A DNA stretch of 64,000 nucleotides, from contig NZ_MASN01000060.1 of assembly GCF_001861355.1 (NCBI RefSeq), positions 62,001 through 126,000 on the forward strand. The letters run 5' to 3'. The position numbers and the translations under genes were made by a program. Below, piece after piece: positions 12,928-28,865 of the stretch (positions within the stretch are counted from its first letter, which is position 1; the number at the start of each line of letters is the position of its first letter). The notes below the pieces were generated by a model that ran no database searches, was not told the DNA's origin, and saw only the letters and a program-made list of their open reading frames with translations. This stretch comes from Natrialba sp. SSL1 (GTDB lineage: Archaea > Halobacteriota > Halobacteria > Halobacteriales > Natrialbaceae).

Positions 12928-13617
12928 TCACCGCCCTGCAGACAGTGCTCCTGCATCCACACAGAGTTCCACAACGCGAGTACCGAGTTCACGAACCGAC
13001 TCCGGGGCCTCGGATGACACTTCCGGAAGGGTCCGAACCGGGCAGGCACACAGCCGTTCCAGTTCAGCGGGATTCGTCCGTTCGGCGACGGAGCGGGGCT
13101 GAGACGGGTATCGATTCAGTACGACCCCGACGACCGGCACGTCTCGCGCGCGGAGCGCCTCGACGGTCAGTGTCGTGTGGTTCAGCGTTCCCAGTCCGGG
13201 GCGGGAAACGATCAGCGTCGGGAACTCGAGTGCAGCGACGAGGTCGATGATTTCGCGTGGCGGGTCGGTCGAGAGCGGAACGCGGACGCCGCCGGCACCC
13301 TCGACCACGCCGATTGAAGCGGTCTCGAGTTCATGCTGGACGCCTTCGAGGAGTGAATCGAAGGCGAGTTCGTCGCCACTCCGTCGTGCCGCGACGGCCG
13401 GAGCGAGCGGTTCCTCGAAGGTTCGGAGCCGAGTGGCGGCCGAGTCGTCACCGCAGATCCGCTGGACGTACCCGGCGTCGTCGTCCGCCGGAAACCCGGT
13501 TTGGGCGGGCTTGATCGCTCGTGCGTTCCGTCCGCTGTGTCGGAGGTGTGCGACGAGTCCTGCCGTAACGACCGTTTTGCCGACGCCAGTGTCGGTACCG
13601 ACGACGGCGAGCGTCAC
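12928..13617 (-). CDS. bioD: Dethiobiotin synthetase
   Basis: ATP-dependent carboxylation and ring closure of 7,8-diaminopelargonate to dethiobiotin. The P-loop GTDTGVGKT is at residues 8-16, and VVEGAGGVRVPLS is the family's second nucleotide/substrate motif. 229 residues, normal length. Start is GTG 13617, overlapping the bioF stop by 4 bp (GTGA), which fits translational coupling at the end of the bio operon. The IS element begins about a dozen bases after its stop codon, so native downstream sequence has been displaced. Confidence 0.93.
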   Translation of the reverse strand: MTLAVVGTDTGVGKTVVTAGLVAHLRHSGRNARAIKPAQTGFPADDDAGYVQRICGDDSAATRLRTFEEPLAPAVAARRSGDELAFDSLLEGVQHELETASIGVVEGAGGVRVPLSTDPPREIIDLVAALEFPTLIVSRPGLGTLNHTTLTVEALRARDVPVVGVVLNRYPSQPRSVAERTNPAELERLCACPVRTLPEVSSEAPESVRELGTRVVELCVDAGALSAGR

Positions 13618-14819
13618 GGGCGACCCCCAGCCATGGGCGCTGCACCGAAGGCTGCCAGACACTGTTCGAGTTCGTCGTCAGTGTGTGTCGCTCGCGGTGC
13701 GAGCCGTATTCGACTCGTTCCGTCCGGCACTGTCGGTGGCCGTATCGCCGGTGCGGCGATACCGTGTGCTGCGAGTCGCTCCGCCAACGCAACTGCCTCC
13801 TCACGGTCGCCCACGAGTACCGGGAGGATGTGTGTCTCGCCCGCCACCTCGTAGCCGTGCGACTCGAGTCCCGTTCGCAATCGCTCGACAGCACGCCAGA
13901 GTGCCTCGCGCCGGTCTGGTGCGAGCGCCAGCGCGCGCTCGGCGGCAGTGGCTGCCGGTGGCGCAAGCCCGGTCGAAAACACGAACGAACGGGCGGCGTT
14001 GAGCAGGTACTCGATACACGACTGGGAACCTGCCACGAACCCGCCCTGTGAACCGAGCGCCTTCGAGAGCGTCCCGAGTTGGATCTGGACGCGGTCTGCA
14101 AGGTCACGCTCGCCAACAACGCCGCCGTCGTAGACGCCCGTGGCGTGGGCTTCGTCGACCATCACCCACGCTCCGTACTCCTCGGCGACATCACACAGTT
14201 CCTCGAGCGGGGCGATATCGCCGTCCATCGAGAAGACGGAATCGGTCACGACGAGCCACGATTCGTCTGCCGTTCCAGCGCCAGCCCGGTCGGCCATTCG
14301 TTCCGCCAGCGCGTCCGCGTTGCAGTGGTCGTAGACTTCGATAGCAGCTCCCGAGAGGCGTGCGCCGTCGATAATGCTCGCATGGTTGTACGCATCGGAG
14401 AAGATGACGTCCGGCGACAACGCGGTGATCGTTCCGACGTTCGCCGCGTAGCCCGACGAAAACACGAGCGCTCGCTCTGTGTTCTTCTCTGCTGCGAGAG
14501 TGCACTCGAGTGACCGGTGGGCTGGCGTGTCGCCCACGACGAGTCGCGACGCGCCGGCACCCGCTCCGACATCGCGAGCGCCGCGGGCTGCGGCGTCGAC
14601 GACCGCCGGGTCGCCCGCCAACCCGAGGTAATCGTTCGAGGAGAAGAGCACCTGCTCCTGTGCCGTCGCGAAATCGGCGGGCTCGCCCTTCGGGTCAGCA
14701 GCGACACGAGCGCGAGACGCGACGCTCTCGACCGGCGTGAGATCACGACGGAGACCCGCCTGCTCTCGCTCCTGAAGGCGCGCCTCGAGGTCGAACCCGC
14801 GAGAATCTTGCAGCGCCAT
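13614..14819 (-). CDS. bioF: 8-amino-7-oxononanoate synthase
   Basis: PLP-dependent condensation of pimeloyl-CoA (or pimeloyl-ACP) with alanine, the first committed step of biotin ring assembly. alpha-Oxoamine synthase motifs are seen: SSNDYLGLAG, FSSGYAANVG, MVDEAHATGVYD, and the PLP lysine in LGTLSKALGSQGG. 401 residues. Its ATG is 1 bp after the stop of the upstream oxidoreductase and its end overlaps bioD, so it lies inside one operon. Confidence 0.95.
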   Translation of the reverse strand: MALQDSRGFDLEARLQEREQAGLRRDLTPVESVASRARVAADPKGEPADFATAQEQVLFSSNDYLGLAGDPAVVDAAARGARDVGAGAGASRLVVGDTPAHRSLECTLAAEKNTERALVFSSGYAANVGTITALSPDVIFSDAYNHASIIDGARLSGAAIEVYDHCNADALAERMADRAGAGTADESWLVVTDSVFSMDGDIAPLEELCDVAEEYGAWVMVDEAHATGVYDGGVVGERDLADRVQIQLGTLSKALGSQGGFVAGSQSCIEYLLNAARSFVFSTGLAPPAATAAERALALAPDRREALWRAVERLRTGLESHGYEVAGETHILPVLVGDREEAVALAERLAAHGIAAPAIRPPTVPDGTSRIRLAPRATHTDDELEQCLAAFGAAPMAGGRP

Positions 14820-14820
14820 C

Positions 14821-15861
14821 TTAGAACTCGGGCAGCAACGCTGCCGGACCGAAGACGCCGTACTCGCCGTTCCGGTTTCGCCGAACGCCAGCCTTCAGAT
14901 AGCCGAGTGCCGGACCGTTGACGTTAGCCTCCATGCTGGTGGCGTCGTCGAGCTGGAACGTATTAGTGCCACGCTCACCGTCGAAGGTCGTCCCGGTCAC
15001 GCTCACCGTCGTGGTCGTCGGCTTCTCGTCGGATCGCACGTCGAGAATCCCACCGACCGTCACGTCCTCGGCGTCACAGATCCCTGCCCGCTCGAGGAGC
15101 ACGTCGTCGGCGTGTTCCATGTCGGTGAACTCGAGACGGCCGTCGTGATCGTCGATCACGCGCGTTATCTCCTCGTCGGACAGTTGGCGGGCAGTTTCGA
15201 GGTCGTAGTCGTCGAGGTGAGCGATATCCTCCCGGACGGTCCCACGGTTGTCCTCGTAGCCGGACTTGAGGCCGACGCCCCACCAGATATCGACTGCTTC
15301 GATGTCGACGAACGACTGGGCGGCGAGCGCGGCCGCACCGGTCAACAGGCCGGGCGTCGCGCCTGCGCCACAGATGAAGGTGATGCCGGTGTCGACGAAC
15401 GTGTCGCGGCGGTCCTCGAGCATGCCGATAACGCGAGAGCGTTTCAGCACGTCGACGAGCACCCCCTCGTACTCCGCTGCCGCAAATCGATCGGCGATAC
15501 GCGGGATGAAATCGTGTTCGAGGTTTGGAACCGCAATCACCACCGCATCGATACGATCGGCTGCAGCGATGATATCGTCGATCGGCGTCTCCGTCCGCTC
15601 AGCCTGTGACGAGGCCGCAACGCCGTTTCCCTCGCGGGAGTGGGTGGCCGACGTGGTGCCTGCAGTACTCGATTCCGCATCCGTGACCGACGACGCCGTC
15701 GCCGCGAGCAGCTCCCCCACGTCGAGCCCCTCGTGATCGATCGCAACGCCGTGGCGATCACACGCAGCAACGGGTGTCAACCCGTCTTTTGCCGTCGCGT
15801 ACTCGAGTGTTCGTCTGCCGATGCCACCGGTTCCAAGAACGGCGAATCGAATGTCGTGCAT
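14821..15861 (-). CDS. bioU: BioU-like NAD(P)-binding oxidoreductase (candidate diaminopelargonate synthase)
   Basis: 346 residues. Rossmann motif GTGGIG at 10-15, with a saccharopine/homoserine-dehydrogenase-like fold suggested throughout. Residues ~57-92 are a low-complexity insertion. No bioA occurs in the operon, and this gene lies between bioB and bioF, where the missing KAPA-to-DAPA step would be expected. In cyanobacteria BioU, a saccharopine-dehydrogenase-like suicide enzyme, does this step by donating a lysine amino group. Lys140 in VLVDVLKRSR is the plausible counterpart. The name rests on context and fold, not on alignment; otherwise it is an uncharacterised oxidoreductase. Confidence 0.6.
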   Translation of the reverse strand: MHDIRFAVLGTGGIGRRTLEYATAKDGLTPVAACDRHGVAIDHEGLDVGELLAATASSVTDAESSTAGTTSATHSREGNGVAASSQAERTETPIDDIIAAADRIDAVVIAVPNLEHDFIPRIADRFAAAEYEGVLVDVLKRSRVIGMLEDRRDTFVDTGITFICGAGATPGLLTGAAALAAQSFVDIEAVDIWWGVGLKSGYEDNRGTVREDIAHLDDYDLETARQLSDEEITRVIDDHDGRLEFTDMEHADDVLLERAGICDAEDVTVGGILDVRSDEKPTTTTVSVTGTTFDGERGTNTFQLDDATSMEANVNGPALGYLKAGVRRNRNGEYGVFGPAALLPEF

Positions 15862-15903: not shown

Positions 15904-17010
15904 TTACTCGCCCGACTCTGTTGGCGTCGTGCTCACTGCTGGCTCCGGGTCCGACTCCGCGGTTTCGTGCCGGGCCGTGACTGCTGCTGGATCGAAGTCG
16001 TTGACCGAACGGTTGGGCTCCAATCCGGCGCGTTGGATAATTTCGAGGTCGTCGCCGGGTGTTTGCCCGGTTGTAGTGAGGTAATCACCCGTCAGAATCC
16101 CGTCGGCACCTGCTTCGAAGGGGAGGTGTTGGTCGCCTTGCTCGAGGGCGACCTCGCGGCCACCGGTGAGTCGAACTCGTGCTGTGGGGTGGAGAAACCG
16201 GTAGACAGCGATGGTTTTGATGAGTTCGGTCGTCGAAATGGCCGCCCGATCGCGTTCTCCAAGCGGTGTTCCGTCGATGGGGTTGAGGACGTTGACCGGG
16301 AGCGAGGAGATGCCGATCTCCTGGAGTTCGATAGCCGCATCGACACGGTCGGTCGGCGATTCGCCCATACCGAGAATAACGCCGGCACAGAGGTCCATTC
16401 CTGCCTCCTTGGCGCGGTGCAGTGTGTGAAGCCGATCCTCGAACGTATGGGTCCCAATGATCTCGGGGAAGTATCGTCGGGAGGTCTCGATATTGTGGTT
16501 GTAGTGATTGACGCCCTCGGCCGCGAGGTCGTTTGCTTCCTCCCGTGTCAGTATCCCGAGCGAGGCGTCGACGGCGACGGCTGTCTCGTCGCGAACGAGG
16601 CGAATGGCTCGGATAACATCGGCCCACTCGTCGGGACGGGCCGTCTTCGAGACGCCCTTTTCGGCGACGACGATGCCAAACCGCTGTGCACCGTCGGCTT
16701 CAGCACGGTTTGCGGCTTCGAGTATCTCTTCGGGATCGAGGAAGCCGTAGGTGTCGATACCAGTGTCGAAGTGGGCCGACTGGGCACAGAAGCCACAGTC
16801 TTCGGCACAGTTGCCCGCCTTCGCGTTGACGATGCTACAGGCGTCGACCGTCCCGTCGGAGAAGTGCCGACGGACGAGGTCAGCACCGACCGCGAGCGCC
16901 TCGACGGGCTGAGCGAGCAAGGCGAGTCCGTCAGTTCGATCGAGGCGCACCCCGTCGAGTACGCGGCGGACTGCGTCGTCGACCGTTCGATTACCAGTTT
17001 CGTAAACCAC
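15904..17010 (-). CDS. bioB: Biotin synthase (radical SAM)
   Basis: Inserts sulfur into dethiobiotin. The radical-SAM cluster motif is CAEDCGFC. Other BioB hallmarks are the YNHNIETSRRYF loop and GMGES. 368 residues, with a short acidic tail beyond the core. Start is GTG 17010, positioned inside a 9-bp-arm palindrome and about 27 bp from a TATA-like box, so the transcript would be leaderless. First gene of the operon bioB, bioU-like, bioF, bioD; 42 bp separate it from the next gene. Confidence 0.95.
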   Translation of the reverse strand: MVYETGNRTVDDAVRRVLDGVRLDRTDGLALLAQPVEALAVGADLVRRHFSDGTVDACSIVNAKAGNCAEDCGFCAQSAHFDTGIDTYGFLDPEEILEAANRAEADGAQRFGIVVAEKGVSKTARPDEWADVIRAIRLVRDETAVAVDASLGILTREEANDLAAEGVNHYNHNIETSRRYFPEIIGTHTFEDRLHTLHRAKEAGMDLCAGVILGMGESPTDRVDAAIELQEIGISSLPVNVLNPIDGTPLGERDRAAISTTELIKTIAVYRFLHPTARVRLTGGREVALEQGDQHLPFEAGADGILTGDYLTTTGQTPGDDLEIIQRAGLEPNRSVNDFDPAAVTARHETAESDPEPAVSTTPTESGE

Positions 17011-17029
17011 GATTTTTATCGTGGTTGAC
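17002..17029 (-). promoter_or_regulatory. Candidate BirA-type biotin operator over the bioB start
   Basis: On the minus strand it reads GTCAACC, 14 bp, GGTTTAC, with a perfect 9-bp-arm inverted repeat AACCACGAT / ATCGTGGTT (4-bp spacer) in the middle. The half-sites match the known BirA operator form (E. coli GTAAACC ... GGTTTAC). It covers roughly -19 to +9 of the predicted start site, so a bound repressor would block transcription. No birA is in this window. Confidence 0.65.
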
Positions 17030-17033
17030 TAGG

Positions 17034-17041
17034 TGATAAAG
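17034..17041 (-). promoter_or_regulatory. TATA-like box of the biotin operon
   Basis: CTTTATCA on the minus strand, about 27 bp upstream of the GTG of bioB. It predicts initiation at or next to the start codon, within the palindromic operator. Confidence 0.5.
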
Positions 17042-28711: not shown

Positions 28712-28865
28712 CTCCTGAACGGTGGGTTTTGGTAAATCGCCATACGGTACCGAGTTGAGCCGGCACAACGAGGGAGGTGAAGCTGAAAACGGCGGATGGT
28801 TCACGTCCAAAATTTCCCGCTTCACCGGGACGGTCGTGTCGTTGGCTCGACCATCCTGCAGACGG

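Follow-up and report, generated by a model that had tools for sequence, protein, structure and literature searches.

What does the short sequence that straddles the start codon of bioB in Natrialba sp. SSL1 do? An earlier note, made from the DNA alone, took it for an operator of the BirA type that overlaps this start codon. The window, i.e., the whole stretch of 64,000 nucleotides that was analysed, carries the following features around this site:

17036..17040, minus strand: TATA-like box TTTAT, -30 to -26 from the bioB start codon
17002..17029, minus strand: predicted BirA operator GTCAACC-N14-GGTTTAC, from its exact sequence and its conservation
17023..17029, minus strand: left half-site GTCAACC, -19 to -13 from the start codon, upstream of the presumed transcription start
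17002..17008, minus strand: right half-site GGTTTAC, made of the third base of the GTG start and codons 2-3 of bioB
15904..17010, minus strand: bioB, biotin synthase, with a GTG start; TIGR00433 above cut-off at 342.9 bits; Pfam Radical_SAM and BATS
14821..15861, minus strand: bioU, suicide-type stand-in for BioA; NF047886 at E 2.4e-92 and 309 bits (cut-off 600); PDB 6ir4 (Slr0355 protein) at E 2.3e-77
13614..14819, minus strand: bioF, 8-amino-7-oxononanoate synthase; TIGR00858 at 404 bits (cut-off 426)
12928..13662, minus strand: bioD, dethiobiotin synthase; TIGR00347 above cut-off at 127 bits

The operon thus reads bioB, bioU, bioF, bioD, and its BioB shares 96% identity with the Natrialba hulunbeirensis protein. 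Of 80 named haloarchaeal bioB loci, 56 show this gene order; in the others, some or all of the neighbours went undetected within the DNA examined. No bioA is present in the operon and a homologue of BioU, a suicide enzyme known from cyanobacteria, takes its place (we take Slr0355, 6ir4, to be BioU itself). BioU was found in 63 of the 80 haloarchaeal loci.

Read from 17029 to 17002, the minus strand gives GTCAACC-ACGATAAAAATCGT-GGTTTAC, in exact agreement with the sequence and coordinates first put forward. The half-site bases agree with GTAAACC and GGTTTAC at 13 of 14 positions, the sole departure being a C for an A in the left half. Two further claims about the site held: its right half is the GGTTTAC of E. 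coli, and its spacing falls within the 14 or 15 bp used to recognise BirA operators, whose consensus is quoted as TTGTAAACC-[N14/15]-GGTTTACAA (PMC545781). The same C is found in the delta-proteobacterial sites of Geobacter and Desulfuromonas, which read GTcAACC-[N14]- (PMC545781). The GTG start of bioB occupies 17010-17008 and codons 1-3 are GTG GTT TAC, codon 2 encoding Val and codon 3 Tyr.

Upstream, TTTATC lies at 17040-17035 and 5 bp separate it from the left half-site, the distance that had been proposed. In Haloferax volcanii, the haloarchaeal TATA motif is TTWT and 72% of transcripts are leaderless (PMC4983044). Because TTTAT stands at -30 to -26, and following the promoter rules of that study, we infer that transcription begins at about the start codon; the bioB transcript would then be leaderless and the operator would cover its start. 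The suggestion that the site sits over the transcription start is supported to this extent, the start point itself being a prediction from the TATA box and haloarchaeal promoter rules.

The site also contains the perfect inverted repeat with 9-bp arms that had been pointed out in it, AACCACGAT-N4-ATCGTGGTT. Its existence stood, its significance did not: such repeats, with loops of 0-10, are common in themselves (n = 16 in the 64-kb window), and the complete palindrome was seen only in the studied genome and its two nearest Natrialba relatives, other genera keeping just the half-sites. Across 80 bioB sites, the complementarity of the inner pairs is what column composition predicts, and the palindrome was rejected as a conserved signal on that ground. 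On the sequences compared, it is a peculiarity of Natrialba, and the element that rises above chance is the bipartite half-site motif rather than the palindrome.

These observations bear on whether the site could act in RNA, as an attenuator or a translation-blocking stem in the bioB mRNA. The palindrome, if transcribed, would fold in the studied genome (-15.2 kcal/mol, z -2.9). However, the TATA box puts the start at about the start codon, which would leave the left arm untranscribed, and from the GTG on there is no such stem; moreover, the inner stem is not preserved in other genera, its pairing being what the column composition predicts. A search of Rfam gave no match for an RNA element. 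We regard a hairpin as very improbable.

The bipartite motif is rare. Without mismatches, GTNAACC-N14-GGTTNAC has a single occurrence in the genome (4.58 Mb), at the start of bioB; with at most one mismatch it occurs at five places, two of which are the starts of bioB and bioY. Surroundings were read for two of the remaining three matches and showed enoyl-CoA hydratase/MaoC-like and methyltransferase-like genes; with no recognisable biotin genes there, all three were taken as chance matches and not as members of a regulon. A one-mismatch relative of the motif lies in the window at 28777-28804 (GTGAACC-N14-GCTTCAC) and was taken as chance.

Conservation of the site at bioB was followed across the order. 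The two half-sites keep their position in 82 of 83 haloarchaeal bioB genes, and N14 separates them in 81 of these 82; the one gene that departs (L272) has a left half decayed to GTTAATC. The earlier note had named orthologous bioB promoters without the palindrome as a ground for abandoning its reading, and what these promoters keep is the pair of half-sites. In the 80 named loci, four bases of the left half (G, A, A and C at -19, -16, -15 and -14) and six of the right half (G, G, T, T, A and C) never vary, and the bases between the halves are largely free. TTTAT at -30 to -26 is conserved as well, with an invariant T at -28.

The right half coincides with codons 2-3, and in all relatives the GGTTTAC bases lie within coding sequence. 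It is possible to imagine that they are kept for the N-terminus of BioB (Met-Val-Tyr) or for translation of a leaderless mRNA. The 80 named loci came partly from a peptide seed containing MVYETGN; because one search seed thus included the BioB N-terminus, we repeated the codon test on the order-wide sample of 83 bioB genes, found with the whole BioB protein and without an N-terminal seed. All 83 genes use GTT as codon 2, whereas GTT makes up 6.3% of the other Val codons in bioB, and Val at position 10 is mostly encoded by GTC. Codon 3 is mostly TAC and otherwise GAC (5), AAC (1) or CAC (1), so that residue 3 switches to Asp, Asn or His solely through NAC codons that preserve GGTTNAC; codons 4 to 8 vary synonymously. 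The left half, which lies upstream of the gene, is equally conserved, and the non-coding sites at bioY share the motif. Constraint on protein or translation is therefore a very unlikely reason for the conservation of GGTTTAC. Since codon 2 is always GTT, the simple reading of codons 2-3 is that DNA rather than protein is constrained, and protein selection alone does not give this pattern.

In a separate observation, the bioB start codon is GTG in 71 of 82 haloarchaeal genes; among leaderless mRNAs of Haloferax volcanii, GUG starts account for 6 to 9% (PMC4983044). The preference for GTG may belong to an extended operator, or it may keep expression low. We consider it probable that BirA binding, rather than BioB function, determines codons 2-3 of haloarchaeal bioB, and perhaps the GTG preference too, residue 3 thus being limited to the NAC-encoded Tyr, Asp, Asn and His. 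If so, a repressor site straddling a leaderless start codon would have fixed a protein N-terminus across a whole archaeal order.

A BirA operator calls for a BirA able to bind DNA, and the earlier note would have given up its reading had the N-terminal helix-turn-helix (HTH) been missing. The birA gene of the studied genome (L001:1177-2154, minus strand) encodes HTH PF08279 (HTH_11) at residues 22-64 (E 1.2e-12), BPL at 105-218, and BPL_C; its alignment with E. coli BirA (1bia) spans residues 20-306 and so takes in the HTH. With an N-terminal HTH fused to the ligase, the protein belongs to BirA group II. A point against the reading is that haloarchaeal BirA scores 54 bits on TIGR00122 (birA_repr_reg), under the cut-off of 70. 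A second BPL-family match in the genome was considered as a second BirA and rejected; it is a lipoate ligase. BirA matches are present in 184 of 194 haloarchaeal genomes, and among the best matches listed the alignments begin at query residues 1-14 and thus include the HTH. Two haloarchaea of one genus (G018, G041) have an extra HTH-less biotin ligase beside the HTH-type BirA (query residues 86/89-323, 46-47% identity). In one non-haloarchaeal family (G201, G210, G219, G225), a second biotin-ligase domain without HTH lies in frames of 724 to 813 aa, possibly as part of a fusion protein.

The proposed scan of the genome for the pattern at other biotin genes turned up a second site at bioY; birA has none. 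The sole other well-placed near-match in the genome belongs to the biotin-uptake operon bioY-bioM, where GGAAACC-N14-GGTTTAC stands just upstream of bioY and a gene for an ECF-type ATPase (bioM) comes next. No sign of birA autoregulation was found, the best position weight matrix scores at 30 birA starts being at or below -1.9.

The site at bioY recurs throughout the order. A strong N14 site was found in 29 of 30 haloarchaeal bioY loci, none of which prefers another spacing, with best scores of 13.9-28.4 against a shuffle maximum of 5.4; the lone exception among the 30 (L168 / L295, in G032) has no convincing operator though BirA is present. Of the 116 strict matches listed for 194 haloarchaeal genomes, 51 fall at bioB, all with an identical offset, and 62 at bioY (49 assigned by coordinates and 13 by tblastn), 113 in all; three lie elsewhere. 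Reading the pattern backwards, as a control, gave about five matches. Chance similarity, to which the 16 perfect repeats of the window and the three one-mismatch matches away from recognisable biotin genes (two surroundings read) would lend some colour, has next to no probability in our judgement: position and spacing are fixed in 81 of 83 bioB genes order-wide, strict matches concentrate at two types of gene, and this conservation across genomes already refutes it.

The relative L294 (G056, same genus) is without bioB, yet it keeps birA and bioY with an identical operator, GGAAACCGAAGTTTTGATCACGGTTTAC. Natrialba magadii is reported to be a biotin auxotroph with bioYMN (PMC3403918), and the gene content of L294 fits that report.

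Sites and BirA disappear together. Ten haloarchaeal genomes lack BirA, and they have neither a strict site nor bioY, a co-absence with a probability of 2.4e-5 if the genomes were independent. No bioB keeping GTT-TAC was found in these BirA-less haloarchaea, given that they show no strict site. Beyond the order, 14 loci were checked in other families of the phylum; each carries the motif at bioY, and birA is adjacent in 13. In one locus outside the order (L251), the end of the site adjoins the bioY start codon.

This distribution helps to decide which protein would use the site. HTH regulators are numerous in haloarchaea, so that an operator for another regulator that also senses biotin status (e.g., of the Lrp, TrmB or ArsR type) might be envisaged; expression of bioB, bioF and bioD drops jointly in an Lsm mutant of Haloferax mediterranei (PMC10779274), an indication that other inputs exist. 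Nevertheless, half-sites and spacing agree with the BirA consensus, the site is missing wherever BirA is missing, and its place in relatives outside the order is between birA and bioY. Another regulator is unlikely, although less so than the hairpin, the coding constraint or chance.

We propose that the element is a BirA operator, with a probability of roughly 0.9, on which BirA loaded with biotinyl-AMP would cover the transcription start and repress bioB-bioU-bioF-bioD. The reading first offered for this locus is supported by the HTH in BirA, by a site in 82 of 83 bioB genes and by the second site at bioY; these, together with the co-occurrence with BirA, are properties of the genomes themselves. 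That BirA binds here, that biotinyl-AMP takes part and that occlusion represses transcription we infer by carrying over the established BirA mechanism, including binding as found in B. subtilis (PMC4016012), to an archaeal promoter; the leaderless start is likewise predicted. BirA would act both as biotin-protein ligase and as repressor. With plentiful biotin, biotinyl-5'-AMP would be made and BirA would dimerise, the HTH domain of each partner binding one of the half-sites, GTCAACC and GGTTTAC, 14 bp apart. The dimer would span from just past the TATA box, over the presumed transcription start, to codon 3, and RNA polymerase would be blocked from the leaderless bioB-bioU-bioF-bioD transcript. 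With scarce biotin, unmodified carboxylases would consume biotinyl-AMP, BirA would depart and synthesis would be switched on; uptake through bioY-bioM would likewise be switched on, via the second operator. The literature that we searched holds no binding or expression findings for any haloarchaeal BirA.

Taken together, these data suggest that a bacterial-type vitamin switch, its DNA words nearly unchanged, extends over an archaeal order with eukaryote-like TATA/TFB promoters. The predicted regulon is compact (bioB-bioU-bioF-bioD and bioY-bioM) and testable in genetically tractable haloarchaea. It may also illustrate clearly how an operator can constrain the coding sequence that it overlaps, and it cautions that conservation of a protein N-terminus may reflect a signal in the DNA.

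Much of this has precedents. BirA regulon signals were reportedly predicted in Bacteria and Archaea by Rodionov, Mironov and Gelfand in 2002 (Genome Res 12:1507), the title claiming Archaea. BirA signals in archaea had thus been predicted by 2002, and the newer point would be that the operator dictates the N-terminal codons of BioB. Our literature search, incomplete in coverage, brought up no description of an order-wide haloarchaeal regulon of bioB-bioU-bioF-bioD and bioY-bioM, nor of a site whose overlap with the start of bioB is invariable and would set codons 2-3, and we make no claim of priority. The haloarchaeal sites resemble the known BirA regulon signal in their GTNAACC and GGTTNAC halves, spacing of 14, location at bioB and bioY and HTH-type BirA, and also in a birA that is not autoregulated, as in several bacteria. 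At bioB they differ from it in overlapping the start codon, in the leaderless transcript that we predict and in the TATA/BRE promoter.

In E. coli, the bioO operator lies between two divergent sigma-70 promoters; here, there is one archaeal promoter and the site lies over the start codon. The two systems share the right half GGTTTAC and, judging by the 1bia alignment, a bifunctional HTH-ligase. Haloarchaea are not alone in having a site that overlaps a coding start: the bioB site of Desulfovibrio vulgaris is at position +6 (PMC545781). In B. subtilis, BirA has operators at bioW, yuiG and yhfU and its binding needs biotin and ATP; these operators differ from that of E. coli in sequence and spacing (PMC4016012). 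Sequence and spacing also set them apart from the haloarchaeal sites, as does a bacterial promoter, but in B. subtilis, as predicted here from sequence, one BirA controls several operons for biotin synthesis and uptake.
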